From: Rhodanobacter sp.
GTDB lineage: Bacteria > Pseudomonadota > Gammaproteobacteria > Xanthomonadales > Rhodanobacteraceae
Assembly: GCA_026193555.1 (NCBI GenBank)
Contig: JAPHUU010000335.1
Span: 1-12,038, forward strand
DNA: 12,038 nt
Direction of reading: 5' to 3'
Position numbers and translations under genes: made by a program. Positions 244-5,369 of this stretch are shown in pieces. Numbering within the stretch: the first letter of the stretch is position 1; each line of letters begins with the position of its first letter. Below the pieces are notes generated by a model. The model was not told the DNA's origin and did no database searches. It saw only the letters and a list, made by a program, of their open reading frames with translations.

Positions 244-771
244 CTACTGCTTCTTCTTGGGTCCGATCATCATGATCATCTGGCGGCCTTCAAGCCGCGG
301 AAACGATTCGACCTGACCGTTCTCGCCAACGTCTTCCTGGATCTTCCTGGCCAGGTTCTGACCCAGATCCTGGTGCGACATCTCGCGACCACGGAAGCGA
401 ATGGTGACCTTGACCTTGTCGCCTTCCTCGAGGAAGCGAAGCATGTTGCGCAGCTTGATCTGGTAATCGCCCACGTCCGTGACCGGCCGGAACTTCACTT
501 CCTTGATCTCGACCTGCTTCTGCTTCTTCTTGGCGGCCTGCGCCTTCTTCTGGGCGTCGAACTTGAACTTGCCGTAGTCCATGATCCGGCAGACGGGCGG
601 GTCGCCGTTCGGCTGGATCTCAACCAGATCCATGCCGGCTTCCTGTGCCAGCGTCAGTGCCTCGTCACGGGTAAGGATGCCGAGCTGCTCGGCGTCTGCA
701 CCGATCACACGAACCCGCGGAACACGGATTTCCTGGTTGCGACGATTGCCCTTGTTGTCTGTGGTTGCGAT
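244..771 (-). CDS. infC: Translation initiation factor IF-3 (AUC start)
   Basis: IF-3 binds the 30S subunit, prevents premature joining of 50S, and proofreads start codon and initiator tRNA. The protein is 175 aa (E. coli 180). It has the N-terminal domain ending in [12 protein letters not shown], a lysine-rich linker ([16 protein letters not shown]), and the C-terminal domain with [19 protein letters not shown], finishing in [15 protein letters not shown]. No ATG or GTG fits the N-terminus. The first in-frame ATG or GTG lies well inside the conserved region, which begins [14 protein letters not shown] full GGAGG (780-784) sits 8 nt before an ATC codon (769-771), giving (M)[12 protein letters not shown]. 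This is taken as the start and matches the family's habit of using AUU/AUC so that IF-3 represses its own mRNA. It lies 43 nt downstream of thrS on the same strand and is presumably co-transcribed. Confidence 0.96.
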
Positions 772-779
772 ACCACGAT

Positions 780-784
780 CCTCC
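780..784 (-). promoter_or_regulatory. Shine-Dalgarno site fixing the infC AUC start
   Basis: Minus-strand GGAGG is a full anti-SD match. It is separated by 8 nt from the ATC at 769-771, which is in frame with IF-3. It decides the start, because no standard start codon lies at a suitable distance. A strong SD paired with a non-AUG codon is the arrangement known from infC autoregulation. Confidence 0.8.
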
Positions 785-814
785 AGAAGAAGTAATGAAT
801 TGACCGTCCGACGC

Positions 815-2716
815 TCAGCGTCGGCTTTCGGTCAGCAGTCGTTCGACGAAATCGGCCAGCGCCATGCTGCCCAGATCCTCGCCGGAACGGGTACGTACGG
901 AAACGCCCTCCATCTCTTTCTCGCGATCACCGACCACCAGGAGATAAGGGACTTTCTGCATCGTATGTTCGCGGATTTTATAGCCGACCTTCTCATTGCG
1001 CAAATCGGACTGTACCCGGAAACCTTTGTCGACAAGGGTTTGCGTTACCTGCCGGACGTAATCGGCCTGCGCATCGGTGATGTTGAGCACCACTGCCTGC
1101 ACCGGCGCCAGCCAGGCGGGCAGCAGCCCGGCATGGTGCTCGATGAGGATGCCGATGAAGCGCTCCATCGAGCCGACGATGGCCCGGTGCAGCATGACCG
1201 GATGCCGCTTCTGCGACTGTTCGTCGACATATTCGGCACCCAGACGCTCCGGCATCATGAAATCGACCTGCATGGTACCGACCTGCCAGGCACGACCGAT
1301 CGAGTCCTTGAGGTGGTATTCGATCTTGGGCGCGTAGAACGCCCCCTCGCCCGGCAACTCCTCCCATTCGACACCGGCGGCGCGCAGTGCACGGCGCAGC
1401 ATTTCCTCGGTGCGATCCCAGAACTCGTCCGAGCCGATGCGCTTTTCCGGTCGCAGCGCCAGCTTGATCGCCAGCTCGGTGAAGCCGAAGTCGGCATACA
1501 CCTTCATCGCCTGCAGGTGAAACGCGGTAACTTCTTCCTCGACCTGATCCGCTGTGCAGAAGATGTGGCCGTCGTCCTGGGTGAAGGCACGCACCCGCAT
1601 GATCCCGTGCAGGGCACCGGATGGCTCATTGCGGTGGCAGCCGCCAAACTCGCCATAACGGATCGGCAGCTCGCGATAGCTGTGCAGGCCGGTGTTGAAC
1701 ACCTGGACGTGGCCGGGGCAGTTCATCGGCTTCAGCGCGTAGGTGTGCTTCTCCGATTCGGTGAAGAACATGTTCTCGGCGTAGTTGTCCCAGTGCCCGG
1801 ACTTTTTCCACAACGACACGTCCAGCACCATCGGGCAGCGGATTTCCTGGTAGCCGCTGCGGCGGTACACGCCGCGCATGTACTGTTCCACCTGCTGCCA
1901 GATCGCCCAGCCATTCGGATGCCAGAACACCATGCCCGGGCTTTCTTCCTGCTGATGGAACAGATCGAGCGCCTTGCCGATCTTGCGGTGATCGCGCTTC
2001 TCGGCCTCTTCGAGCTGGAACAGGTGAGCCTTCAGATCCTTGTCATTGAGCCAGGCCGTGCCATAGATCCGGGTCAGCATGGCCTTGCTGGAATCGCCGC
2101 GCCAGTACGCACCGGCAACCTTCATCAGCTTGAATGCACGCAGCTTGCCGGTGTTCGGCACATGCGGGCCGCGGCAAAGGTCGGTGAACTCGCCCTGGCT
2201 GTAGAGCGACAATTGCTCACCGGCCGGGATCGACTCGATGATCTCGGCCTTGTACTCCTCGCCCATGCCGCGGAAGAATGCCACTGCCTCGTCGCGCGAC
2301 TTCACGCTGCGCGTCACCGGCAACTGCTCGGCGACGATCTTCGCCATCTCGGCCTCGATCCTGGGCAGATCGTCCGGGGTGAACGGCCGTTCGTAGGCGA
2401 AGTCGTAGAAAAAACCGTTGTCGATCACCGGACCGATCGTCACCTGCGCTCCCGGATACAGGCGCTGCACTGCCTGGCCCATCAGATGCGCGGTGGAATG
2501 GCGAAGGATCTCCAGCGCCTCCGGGCTCTTGTCGGTGATGATTTGCAGGCTGGCATCGTGGTCGATGGCAAAACTGGCATCCACCAGCTGACCATCGACC
2601 TTGCCGGCCAGAGTCGCCTTGGCCAGACCGGCGCCAATCGAGGCGGCCACGTCCTGCACGGTAACGGGATGCTCAAACGGCCGCTTGCTGCCGTCGGGTA
2701 GCGTGATCTCAATCAT
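815..2716 (-). CDS. thrS: Threonine--tRNA ligase
   Basis: A class II aminoacyl-tRNA synthetase that charges tRNA-Thr in the cytoplasm and hydrolyses mischarged Ser-tRNA-Thr. The protein is 633 aa, close to the usual length. Domains in order: TGS (about 1-60); editing/SAD domain with HSTAH (H73, H77) and C181/H185 in DLCRGPH; catalytic core with zinc ligands C333 (MNCPGH), H384 (DDGH) and H510 (VMLH); C-terminal anticodon-binding domain (about 540-633). All editing and zinc residues are present. The frame stays open upstream to 2770, but the ATG at 2714-2716 gives [10 protein letters not shown], the normal TGS start, and the extra upstream residues would be encoded by the terminator hairpin. 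The SD before this ATG is weak. infC follows after 43 nt. Expression is probably controlled by the attenuator just upstream. Confidence 0.98.
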
Positions 2717-2737
2717 GGAAGCGATATCTCTGGAAGC

Positions 2738-2760
2738 AAAAAAAGGCGCAACGCGCCTTT
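2738..2760 (-). terminator. Intrinsic terminator (attenuator) in the thrS leader
   Basis: On the minus strand this reads as a hairpin with 8-bp arms AAAGGCGC and GCGCCTTT around a GTT loop (GGCGC/GCGCC core, 2753-2757 with 2745-2749). It runs into seven consecutive T, three of them in the stem. It works only in the minus direction, because the plus strand has just TTT. The T-run ends 21 nt before the thrS start codon, leaving no room for another promoter, so thrS transcripts must read through it. Its 5' arm can pair alternatively with CGCCTT at 2769-2774. It could also end transcripts coming from the upstream pdxH pair. Confidence 0.8.
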
Positions 2761-2768
2761 CGGGACAC

Positions 2769-2774
2769 AAGGCG
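2769..2774 (-). promoter_or_regulatory. Candidate antiterminator segment of the thrS leader
   Basis: Minus-strand CGCCTT (2774 to 2769) is perfectly complementary to AAGGCG in the 5' arm of the terminator (2759 to 2754), with a 9-nt loop between. The two structures are mutually exclusive. The overlapping CTTGTG (2771-2766) is in turn complementary to CACAAG near the 5' end of the leader (2855-2850), giving a possible third, pre-emptive pairing. It lies 9 nt after the stop codon of the tiny leader ORF. A ribosome stalled on the Thr codons would leave it free, while one parked at the stop codon would cover it. Confidence 0.5.
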
Positions 2775-2783
2775 TGACGGGCT

Positions 2784-2810
2784 TCAGCGTGGGCAGCGTG
2801 TAGTTGACAT
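2784..2810 (-). CDS. Putative threonine-containing leader peptide of thrS
   Basis: An eight-residue [11 protein letters not shown], with Thr codons ACT and ACA side by side at positions 3-4. It lies between the candidate promoter and the attenuator. The proposed role is to measure Thr-tRNA supply by ribosome stalling, as leader peptides do for several biosynthetic operons and for pheST in enterobacteria. The SD is poor: only GAG, 8 nt before the ATG. An in-frame GTG three codons earlier is an alternative start, giving an N-terminal V/M-C-D extension. Support is positional: two Thr codons, short length, and a stop just before the antiterminator segment. Chance occurrence of such a short ORF cannot be excluded. 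Confidence 0.5.
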
Positions 2811-2867
2811 GTCGCACACTCGGCCGGCGCGGACGCGGGCCACCTTCGTCTTGTGGTTGGTGCCGAA

Positions 2868-2896
2868 ACGCTAGTTTAGCCCAAACCGGCTGTCAA
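2868..2896 (-). promoter_or_regulatory. Candidate sigma-70 promoter of thrS-infC
   Basis: The minus-strand -35 is a perfect TTGACA (2891-2896). It is followed after exactly 17 nt by TAGCGT (2868-2873), a 3/6 match to TATAAT. Transcription would begin near 2861 and give a leader of about 145 nt before thrS. TAAACT, just upstream of the -10, is a less likely alternative because its spacing is only 12 nt. The promoter sits in the gap after the binding-protein gene, so thrS need not depend on pdxH transcription. Confidence 0.6.
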
Positions 2897-2953
2897 TCTT
2901 CGCCGCGACGCACGCGTTGTCCAGGCAGCACCCCATACTGCCAGTCCGCCGCT

Positions 2954-3751
2954 TCAGCGGGTCGCCCATGCCTTGATGATGCGATGGATCTCGTCCAGCC
3001 CGTCGAACAGCGCCGCCGGACCGGGCTGCAGGATGATCGGCGATTTGATCTCGTGCAGGTCGCCGTTGCTTACCGCCGGAATCGTGTCCCAGCCGGGACG
3101 CGCGGCGACGCGTTCGGGCCGGAAGCGCTTGCCACACCACGAGCCGAGAATGATGTCCGGCGCGCGGCGCACCACTTCGTCGCCGTTGGCCAGGATGCGT
3201 TGCTTTGCCAGCGACTCCCTCGACAGCTCGGGAAAGCAGTCGTCACCGCCGGCGATGCCGATGATTTCCGCTACCCAGCGGATCCCGCTGATCATCGGCT
3301 CGTCCCATTCCTCGAAATATACTCTGGGCCGTCGCGGCAATTGGGCAGCGGCGATCCGGATCTCCTCGATGTGCTGTTCGGCCTGCTGCGCGCAGGCTTC
3401 GGCCTTGTCCGCCGCGCCGACCATGGCGCCTAGCCGCCGGATGTAGGCGAGGATGCCCTCCACACTGCGATGGTTGCTGATCCACACCTCGACGCCCGCC
3501 TTGATCAGGTCGCGCGCGATATCTGCCTGGATATCGGAGAAACCGATCGCCAGATCGGGCGCCAGCTTCAGGATCTCGCCGATCTTCGCGCTGGTGAACG
3601 CCGAGACTTTCGGCTTCTCCCTGCGCGCCCGCGGCGGGCGCACGGTGAAGCCGGAGATGCCGACGATTCGATGCTCCTCGCCCAAGGCGTACAGCACTTC
3701 GGTCGGCTCCTCGGTGAGGCAGACGATCCGCTGCGGGTACGCATCACCCAT
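2954..3751 (-). CDS. BtuF-like (cobalamin-binding-type) periplasmic-binding-fold protein without signal peptide
   Basis: The 265-aa protein has the two-lobed COG0614/BtuF-type fold signature: an N-terminal RIVCLTEEPTEVLYALGEEHRIVGISGF, then LKLAPDLAIGF, a connecting helix through the middle, and a C-terminal half with PDIILGSWCGKRFRPE and a final long helix. Family members bind vitamin B12 or iron chelates for ABC importers. Here the conserved fold begins within eight residues of the start, so there is no secretion signal or lipobox. No permease or ATPase gene is nearby. The start is fixed by TGATG: its ATG shares one base with the pdxH stop, implying translational coupling. The ligand and a cytoplasmic role are unknown. 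Many proteobacterial homologues are annotated simply as cobalamin-binding protein; that label is by similarity. Confidence 0.75.
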   Translation of the reverse strand: MGDAYPQRIVCLTEEPTEVLYALGEEHRIVGISGFTVRPPRARREKPKVSAFTSAKIGEILKLAPDLAIGFSDIQADIARDLIKAGVEVWISNHRSVEGILAYIRRLGAMVGAADKAEACAQQAEQHIEEIRIAAAQLPRRPRVYFEEWDEPMISGIRWVAEIIGIAGGDDCFPELSRESLAKQRILANGDEVVRRAPDIILGSWCGKRFRPERVAARPGWDTIPAVSNGDLHEIKSPIILQPGPAALFDGLDEIHRIIKAWATR

Positions 3752-4338
3752 CAGGGGTACAGCAACCGGCTCGTCCAGGCCTGGCCATCGCGATCCCAGC
3801 GGACCCGTTCGTGCAGGCGGAATTCGGCGCCATACCAGAATTCCAGCATGTCCGGTTCAACAAGGTAGCCGCCCCAGTGTGGCGGGCGAGTCACCTCGCG
3901 CCCCTCGAATTCCCGCTCGTATTGCGCCACCCGCTCTTCGAAAGTGTCCCGGTCCGGCAGCGTCTGTGACTGCAGCGAGGCCCAGGCGCCAATCTGACTC
4001 AGGCGCGGGCGGCTGGCGAAGTAGGTATCCGACTCCTCGTCCGGCAGCTTGCGCACGACACCCTCGACCCGCACCTGCACGCCCTCACGCAGCTGCTTCC
4101 AGTGGAAGCACAGCGCCACCTGCGGGTGCGCTTGCAGCTGACGACCCTTGTCACTGTGGTGGTTCGTGAAGAAGCGGAAGCCACGCTCGTCGACGCTCTT
4201 CAGCAGCACGATCCGTGAAAACACCCGGCCGGAGTCATCGGCCGTGGCCAGATTCATGGCGATCGGGTCGCGCTCGCCGCTCGCCGCGGCCTCGTCCAGC
4301 AGTCGCGAAAATGTATCCAGAAGCACCGAGTTGAGCAT
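3751..4338 (-). CDS. pdxH: Pyridoxine/pyridoxamine 5'-phosphate oxidase
   Basis: An FMN-dependent cytoplasmic enzyme that oxidises PNP or PMP to pyridoxal 5'-phosphate, the last step of B6 synthesis and salvage. The 195-aa protein shows the family's FMN and substrate motifs: SRIVLLKS (41-48), FFTN followed by SDKGRQL (62-68), ASRPRLSQIGAWAS (108-121), and the C-terminal signature WGGYLVEPDMLEFWYGAEFRLHER, ending in RLLYP. It lacks the first ~20 flexible residues of the E. coli enzyme, as Xanthomonas homologues also appear to. The frame remains open far upstream, but that extension is low-complexity shadow sequence. The ATG at 4336-4338 puts the start just before the first conserved helix, with GGGAAG about 11 nt ahead. 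It overlaps the downstream binding-protein gene by one base. Confidence 0.96.
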   Translation of the reverse strand: MLNSVLLDTFSRLLDEAAASGERDPIAMNLATADDSGRVFSRIVLLKSVDERGFRFFTNHHSDKGRQLQAHPQVALCFHWKQLREGVQVRVEGVVRKLPDEESDTYFASRPRLSQIGAWASLQSQTLPDRDTFEERVAQYEREFEGREVTRPPHWGGYLVEPDMLEFWYGAEFRLHERVRWDRDGQAWTSRLLYP

Positions 4339-4377
4339 GGCTTTTGAAACTTCCCTTTGGCAACGTGGTCGACACAC

Positions 4378-4411
4378 GCCATCATGGCGCGAAAAATCAC
4401 CAGTGATGATA
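4378..4411 (-). promoter_or_regulatory. Candidate pdxH promoter element with two inverted repeats
   Basis: In the 200-bp divergent gap between pdxH and the kinase gene, minus-strand TATCAT (4406-4411) matches five of six -10 bases, but no convincing -35 lies 17-18 nt before it. Overlapping it is the inverted repeat ATCAC-CA-GTGAT (4396-4407). A second, GCCAT-C-ATGGC (4378-4388), lies just downstream. Repeats at the -10/+1 position could be an operator. The arms are only 5 bp, so this is tentative. Nothing else is recognised in the gap. Confidence 0.25.
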
Positions 4412-4538
4412 GTGCAATGCCCAACCCATCCAGTAGCTCGAACCCGCCTTTCGCCATGACGCGGCTGCGGCTGATGACACGGGGCGCCGGGCGCCTGCCT
4501 GCCTGCCGCGCCAACCGGTACGGTCTGGCTGATCACGG

Positions 4539-5369
4539 ATGAAGTCGCCAGCCAGCACCGACATGCTTGCACTCGCTGGTCGCCTGCTCGATCACTATGC
4601 CGAGTCCATTGCCCGCGCACGACGCCCCTGGATCCTGGGCCTGTCCGGCCTGCAGGGCAGCGGCAAGAGCACGCTTGCCCGGGAGATGAAGGCGCAGGCC
4701 GAGGCCCGGGGCTGGCACACCGTGGTGCTCTCGCTGGACGACTTCTACTATGCCCGCAGTGACCGTGAGGCGCTGGCCCAGCAGGTGCATCCGCTGTTGC
4801 GCACGCGCGGCGTCCCCGGCACGCATGAGATCGAGCTGTTGATGTCGGTGCTGGCTGCGTTGCCGCAGGCGTCCGCGAAGCTGCCGGTGACACACCCGCG
4901 CTTCGACAAGGGGCGCGACACGCGTATCACACCGTCGCGCTGGCCACGCATCACCCGGCCCCCGAAGCTGGTGATCGTGGAAGGCTGGGCGCTGGGCATC
5001 CGTCCGCAGCTGCAGGCTGCACTTGCCACACCGGCCAATGCGCTGGAACGCGATGAAGACCCCGATGGCAGCTGGCGCCACTGGGTCAACAAGCAGCTGC
5101 GCAGCTACCAGCCGCTATGGCGCAAGTTCGACGCGCTGATCGTGCTGCAGGCTCCGAGCTGGGACATCGTGCGTCGCTGGCGTGGCGAACAGGAGCAGGC
5201 GCTGCTGGCGCGCCATGCGCCACTGGCGATGGATGCCGCAGCGATGGATCGGTTCCTGGCGCACTTCGAGCGGTTGAGCCGGCACGCGCTGGCGACCCTG
5301 CCAGCACTGGCCGACACCTGCGTCGAGTTCGACACCGCCCGACAGGTCACTGCGATCACTCACGCCTGA
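4539..5369 (+). CDS. P-loop kinase, probable D-glycerate 3-kinase
   Basis: The 276-aa cytoplasmic kinase of the uridine-kinase/GLYK superfamily transfers phosphate from ATP, probably to D-glycerate. Walker A is GLQGSGKST (37-45). LSLDDFYY (65-72) follows the second strand and carries the acidic DD pair typical of the family. HPRFDKGRD (119-127) and RPPKLVIVEGWALG (140-153) correspond to the substrate region and the VIxEGW strand seen in GLYK proteins; YQPLW (190-194) is also characteristic. The ATG at 4539 leaves about 36 residues before the P-loop; the SD is weak. It diverges from pdxH and converges on ybjQ with a 37-bp gap that shows no terminator. Substrate assignment rests on family resemblance. 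A related kinase specificity is possible. Confidence 0.8.
   Translation: MKSPASTDMLALAGRLLDHYAESIARARRPWILGLSGLQGSGKSTLAREMKAQAEARGWHTVVLSLDDFYYARSDREALAQQVHPLLRTRGVPGTHEIELLMSVLAALPQASAKLPVTHPRFDKGRDTRITPSRWPRITRPPKLVIVEGWALGIRPQLQAALATPANALERDEDPDGSWRHWVNKQLRSYQPLWRKFDALIVLQAPSWDIVRRWRGEQEQALLARHAPLAMDAAAMDRFLAHFERLSRHALATLPALADTCVEFDTARQVTAITHA

Follow-up and report, generated by a model that had tools for sequence, protein, structure and literature searches.

A candidate ribosome-mediated attenuator of thrS with a predicted hairpin-bridged Shine-Dalgarno sequence in Rhodanobacter and its relatives

The thr, trp, his, leu and ilv leaders of enterobacteria are leader-peptide attenuators that control amino-acid operons, and in E. 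coli the pheST operon has an attenuator with the pheM leader peptide. For thrS, there are two well-known solutions, an enzyme-operator system in E. coli and the T-box in Firmicutes. In the former, ThrS binds its own thrS translational operator, in which tRNA-anticodon-like stem-loops lie next to the thrS ribosome-binding site. In bacilli, His leader peptides were predicted before hisS/hisZ paralogues, in a study whose main text makes no mention of thrS (PMC2965389).

Here, the region upstream of thrS was analysed in a 12,038-nucleotide stretch of DNA from Rhodanobacter sp. (contig JAPHUU010000335.1; this whole stretch is hereafter the window), for which a preliminary description had proposed an attenuator with a Thr-Thr leader peptide. 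All the elements that it had named were found in place when the minus strand was checked base by base, and are listed below together with the further ones discussed here.

2891..2896, minus strand: TTGACA, -35 hexamer of the predicted leader promoter (base-by-base check)
2868..2873, minus strand: TAGCGT, -10 hexamer, after a 17-nt spacer (base-by-base check)
2855-2850, minus strand: CACAAG (base-by-base check)
2841..2846, minus strand: AAGGTG, likely Shine-Dalgarno (SD) of the leader peptide, which doubles as region 1 and complements region 2 (anti-SD match; pairing permutations)
2822..2841, minus strand: bridging hairpin GGCC-C-GCG-UCCG-CGC-C-GGCC, predicted between the SD and the start codon (RNAalifold, covariation)
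2811..2821, minus strand: pre-start stretch GAGTGTGCGAC, consensus GNGTGYGAC (invariant columns of alignment A1)
2784..2810, minus strand: leader peptide MSTTRCPR, ATG TCA ACT ACA CGC TGC CCA CGC TGA (sequence, ORF counts)
2799..2804, minus strand: Thr codons ACT ACA (conservation of codon 3 and codon 4)
2769..2774, minus strand: region 2, CGCCTT, 5' strand of the putative antiterminator (AAGGCG complement in the terminator; compensatory pairs)
2741..2761, minus strand: predicted terminator hairpin, regions 3 and 4 (terminator-like hairpin in 91/94 leaders)
2738..2744, minus strand: seven T, which overlap and follow the terminator stem (base-by-base check)
815..2716, minus strand: thrS, the presumed regulated gene (Pfam TGS, tRNA_SAD, tRNA-synt_2b, HGTP_anticodon)

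Transcription would be expected to start near 2861, and the T run lies 21 nt from the thrS ATG (2716). In the window, infC comes after thrS, and the gene upstream of the leader (2954-3751), co-oriented with thrS, encodes a periplasmic binding protein. The leader is not beyond chance from the window alone, and the case therefore depends on comparison: within the window, neither the minimum free energy of the leader (z -0.82) nor that of the short hairpin (z +0.80) was unusual, terminator-like sites were not in excess (3 vs a shuffled mean of 5.1), and no Rfam family, including the amino-acid leader families and the T-box, matched at E<=1. A similar search of 20 relatives gave tRNA as the sole Rfam match at E<=0.1. 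The comparison largely supported the leader-peptide reading through the conservation of the Thr codons, the terminator and the alternative pairings, and we estimate at roughly four in five the probability that this leader controls thrS by ribosome-mediated attenuation of transcription and has a hairpin-bridged SD.

Protein searches found thrS in 144 of the 147 genomes of the family, and the set of upstream regions compared here (n=110) comprised the 80 best of 586 loci that had been confirmed, 29 more, and the window. A short ORF occurred in 102 of these regions (94 distinct leaders) under a filter that requires Thr at codons 2-5. This filter being circular for Thr conservation, counts were anchored instead on every distinct GYGACATG octamer within 400 nt upstream of thrS, with no Thr required, the anchor itself being taken from conserved sequence. 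The octamer was absent in 13 of the 110 loci and gave 89 distinct sites. Conserved Thr codons in a short ORF of the relatives, a check that the preliminary description had called for, were indeed observed: codon 3 encodes Thr at all 89 sites (ACT 84, ACC 3, ACA 2) and codon 4 at 76 of them, with silent variation of the third base (ACC 53, ACG 17, ACA 5, ACT 1). The ORF is 5-9 residues long at 88 sites and 14 at one, and ends with TGA in 87, TAG in 4 and TAA in 3 of the 94 leaders. Some lineages have Thr-Arg-Thr, in which CGA encodes the Arg and the Thr codons vary. The predicted ORF, of about eight codons with one to three for Thr, carries the cognate codons that a leader-peptide attenuator would have; their small number speaks against this reading. 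ACT and ACA represent 2.9% and 1.5% of the Thr codons in 80 thrS genes, and the leader therefore favours a rare Thr codon, both being used in the window. At codon 3 (window 2802-2804), the rare, and perhaps slow, codon ACT seems to be selected.

Eight loci had no short ORF according to the filter (L037, L047, L069, L104, L106, L108, L110 and L111). The contig of L047 begins at the ORF, which is visible there, and the ThrS tree places the last five loci away from those that bear a leader. No leader was recognised at L037, L069 and L158. By eye, L037 (a Rhodanobacter MAG) and L158 are apparent natural losses, with a thrS but no recognisable leader ORF, and L037 seems to retain a terminator-like hairpin as well as what looks like a degenerate leader. 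Two of the 20 fetched regions (L171 and L172) gave no thrS start. The contigs of L047 and L063, labelled Eremiobacteraeota and Rhizobium, have thrS genes and leaders that are Dyella-like and Arenimonas-like, and are probably misbinned. At eight loci (L082, L084, L085, L093, L097, L160, L162 and L164), the leader is immediately preceded by a gene for tRNA-Val (GAC), and it may therefore be co-transcribed with the tRNA there.

A terminator-like hairpin follows the ORF in 91 of the 94 distinct leaders, a predicted intrinsic terminator thus standing between the leader ORF and the structural gene, as in an attenuator. The three leader ORFs with no recognised terminator (L102, L105 and L107) all belong to one ThrS clade of four. 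This separate clade, which also includes L109, has a support of 100. The distance from ATG to terminator stem is 48-64 nt (5th-95th percentile, n=91; median 51), and pairing of region 2 starts about 8 nt past the stop codon (median). Such a terminator might just end upstream transcription, with an ORF that is fortuitous or encodes a general small peptide, and no sensing of Thr-tRNA; in the window, the upstream gene is co-oriented, and the terminator alone is statistically ordinary. We nevertheless give this explanation hardly any credence: 67 of 93 leaders have a TTG-type promoter-like pair scoring at least 8/12 at 36-120 nt before the ATG of the peptide (a further leader was too short to be scanned; single-base shuffles reach 1%), and the lineages have jointly retained the Thr codons, the alternative pairings and the spacing between ORF and terminator. 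In four Dyella relatives (L036, L050, L052 and L053), palindromes like CCGGCCATCCATGGCCGGAC were noticed between terminator and thrS.

In the window, region 2 (CGCCTT) pairs with AAGGCG of the terminator. Across 91 loci, pairing of region 2 with the 5' arm of its own terminator (-12.88 kcal/mol) was stronger than with swapped partners (-12.04), none of 2000 permutations being as good, and the same was observed for the pairing of the SD with region 2 (-12.96 vs -11.80 kcal/mol; 0/2000). Control pairings were matched by 1392 (SD with terminator), 1975 (ORF with region 2) and 806 (reversed) of 2000 permutations. When each similarity cluster was represented by a single locus (48 of 137), 13 of 5000 permutations were as good for regions 2 and 3 and 11 of 5000 for SD and region 2, with controls ranging from 693 to 4576, although such permutations leave some kinship effects. 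The compensatory changes are lineage-specific, with region 2:3 pairs such as CGCCTT:AAGGGCG, CCAGG:CCTGG, CGAGG:CCTCG, CGAAG:CTTCG and ACCGG:CCGGT. These results, which are what the preliminary description had anticipated for relatives, suggest that a mutually exclusive antiterminator has been retained in evolution. Its proposal that CACAAG pairs with CTTGTG holds for the window, but as a local case only, the region-2 complement being usually CAAGGTGG in the relatives inspected, where it overlaps the leader SD. Two changes to the initial proposal follow from our reading of these sequences: region 1 would be the leader SD rather than CACAAG, and a hairpin would bridge the distance from this SD to the ATG.

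The start signal was analysed in an alignment (A1) of 67 leaders, corresponding to 73 distinct leaders (window included) minus the six that lack the main-type hairpin (L082, L085, L092, L093, L097 and L100); 21 other distinct leaders were also left out. For these 67 leaders, RNAalifold predicted unaided a hairpin between AAGGTG and ATG, with six pairs that each show two-sided changes. In a seven-pair version, 94.9% of the cells are paired and 35 two-sided cells were counted vs 7.4 in shuffled data, slid versions of the hairpin reaching 14.5-43.2% paired; further pair types were not above shuffles (12 vs 10.7; 103/500 as high). GNAA loops occur in 38 of the 67 leaders, and the remaining loops are diverse. 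In 97 of 98 hairpin-type loci, the better match to the 16S tail (anti-SD) lies upstream of the hairpin, with a mean pairing of -6.6 kcal/mol vs -3.2 kcal/mol adjoining the ATG (98 leaders), in a scan that favours the upstream side (15 windows vs 7; best single-window means -5.64 and -3.18). The weak SD of the peptide, raised as the main doubt in the preliminary description, thus finds an answer in a likely SD, AAGGTG, sitting upstream of a conserved, covarying hairpin, which we read as bringing this SD to the leader ATG. It may be objected that AAGGTG is conserved as region 1 only, the leader being started from a weak bulged SD (GAGYGUG) adjoining the ATG. The complementarity of AAGGTG to region 2 exceeding that of permuted partners and some anti-SD pairing next to the ATG (best-window mean -3.2 kcal/mol) speak for this view, which we regard as doubtful: the upstream element is still SD-like when changed (AGGAA, AGGAG, GAGGTG), and it adjoins the ATG in three hairpin-less loci (L085, L097 and L100, classed by eye), where GAGGTG stands directly before it. 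The hairpin-less state needs two changes on the ThrS tree.

A second leader type, found at 10 loci including Dokdonella fugitiva (L092), bears on the same question. Its sequence is unrelated, and the order SD, hairpin, ATG ACG/ACT CGA is kept. The SD-like stretch, for the most part GGAG but weaker at two loci (L082 and L164), is followed by a predicted hairpin, CGUA-GUUC-loop-GAAC-ACG (GCCC/GGGC in L093), then AUCAC and ATG. Nine of these ten leaders have no anti-SD pairing adjoining the ATG (0.1-0.2 kcal/mol), and the tenth, L093, reaches -2.5 within a hairpin arm, both of which argue against a start from a site next to the ATG and for the hairpin-bridged SD. With the hairpin excluded, the gap between SD and ATG measures about 7 nt in the second type, against 11 for main-type and 6 for hairpin-less leaders (by-eye count).

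Among leaders with the main-type hairpin, GNGTGYGAC (window 2811-2821) is nearly invariant, and neither coding nor the hairpin explains it. Its core is kept in the hairpin-less L085 and not in L097 and L100, and by eye no pairing of this pre-start stretch with other parts of the leader was seen. An E. coli-like operator, in which ThrS would bind a tRNA-like leader structure and block ribosomes while the short ORF is incidental, could draw on this stretch and on the near-fixed ACT codon, which look beyond coding constraint, as well as on the split ribosome-binding site of E. coli thrS mRNA, whose hairpin is accommodated by the ribosome (PMC3936740). Several observations make such an operator very unlikely here. 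The ORF length, the Thr codons (with silent changes at codon 4) and the stop are all conserved; the hairpin loop varies, with no conserved anticodon-like loop by eye; and the leader ORF comes after the conserved hairpin, with the T run only 21 nt from thrS in the window and a leader-to-thrS spacing that varies among relatives.

The elements, their conservation, the covariation of the hairpin and the two alternative pairings are features of the compared sequences themselves. Promoter use, translation, stalling, termination and the direction of the response, as we infer them for a ribosome-mediated attenuator, would be as follows. The leader RNA would present in order the SD, the hairpin, a tiny ORF in which Thr is encoded close to the start codon, region 2 and, last, the intrinsic terminator. 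A 30S subunit would bind the SD, moved towards the ATG by the hairpin. When Thr-tRNA is scarce, the ribosome would stall at codon 3 or 4 and leave region 2 free to pair with the terminator's 5' arm and loop as these emerge, so that RNA polymerase reads into thrS. With plentiful Thr-tRNA, it would get to the stop codon, cover the start of region 2 and leave, after which region 2 could pair with the SD and the terminator would form, as it would with no ribosome loaded.

One folding test went against this scheme. When a ribosome was placed on the Thr codons in a full-fold partition function, the region 2:3 pairing did not differ between real and shuffled region 2 (0.52 vs 0.51). A ribosome at this position also leaves the SD uncovered, so that SD:region 2 pairing could still form. 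When only the RNA downstream of the ribosome was folded, the pairing was 0.932, vs 0.901 with swapped partners (sd 0.009, 60 swaps) and 0.852 when shuffled. With a modelled ribosome at the stop codon covering 10 nt, it decreased from 0.932 to 0.822, by no more than the swapped controls did, and stayed above 0.5 in 87 of 91 leaders, whereas covering more led to 0.576 (16 nt) and 0.419 (18 nt). The geometry initially proposed, with a ribosome at the stop codon masking region 2, thus agrees only partly with the models (0.93 to 0.82). Because the antiterminator is weakened only partly, the off state probably also depends on SD:region 2 pairing after ribosome release.

A more speculative view, to which we give low odds, is that the hairpin is more than a spacer and acts as an active loading device: RNA polymerase would pause just past it, with the SD exposed, and a 30S subunit would dock before the ATG is made. 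The fixed GTGYG would fit, as it resembles the elemental pause consensus. Were this true, translation of an eight-codon leader would be synchronised with transcription, loading and folding would compete for one sequence, the SD being also region 1, and the leader would represent a distinct attenuator design built around a hairpin-bridged SD.

To assess how widely the leader occurs, a covariance model built on its SD-hairpin-ATG portion was searched in 299 genomes of the order and 369 of the class. Within the order, 156 of the 299 genomes matched at E<=0.1, counted irrespective of a neighbouring thrS. These included 70 of the 76 genomes in the family of the window (f1; listing counted by hand) and 78 genomes of a second family (f2; a count of matches, not a rate), among them all 35 f2 genomes drawn for sampling. 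Of the eight matches outside both families, seven were weak (E 0.05-0.08) and one, G195, was strong (4e-12), with thrS following it. Among the six misses in f1, five carry second-type leaders, and in the sixth (G023) no leader was recognisable. In the class, 7 of the 369 genomes matched at E<=0.01, five of them belonging to f1 and f2 and the other two being weak (E ~0.008). Among the 46 loci L112-L157, some of them repeated, the octamer was found near the centre in 42, with the thrS start 94-204 nt downstream in 41 of the 42.

If the attenuator reading is true, it would represent a third solution for thrS, in most sampled members of f1 and many of f2. In the literature searched, no description of a thrS leader peptide in this group was found, which does not settle priority. 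The SD-hairpin-ATG arrangement, with its hairpin-less variants and an unrelated second version, amounts to a natural experiment on initiation at structured sites, and the leader also informs how very short peptides may serve as sensors. As in the enterobacterial leaders, a short ORF has codons of the regulated amino acid, and an antiterminator competes with an intrinsic terminator; in contrast to them, the gene here is that of a synthetase, the ORF has about eight codons with one to three for Thr, a hairpin separates SD and ATG, and region 1 overlaps the SD and not the ORF. Leader-peptide attenuation of an aminoacyl-tRNA synthetase operon is shared with pheST, which differs in its Phe codons, its gene, and its leader sequence and structure. 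Predicted leader-peptide control of a synthetase gene is likewise shared with the hisS/hisZ leaders, which belong to Firmicutes and use His codons (PMC2965389). The E. coli thrS system concerns the same gene, with a hairpin splitting the ribosome-binding region (PMC3936740), but the split site is there that of thrS itself and the enzyme regulates, whereas here it would be the site of the leader peptide, upstream of a terminator. The Firmicutes thrS T-box also acts on this gene, by transcription antitermination that senses tRNA charging (PMC2494555). Unlike the latter, the present leader gave no T-box match, and its sensing would be by the ribosome.
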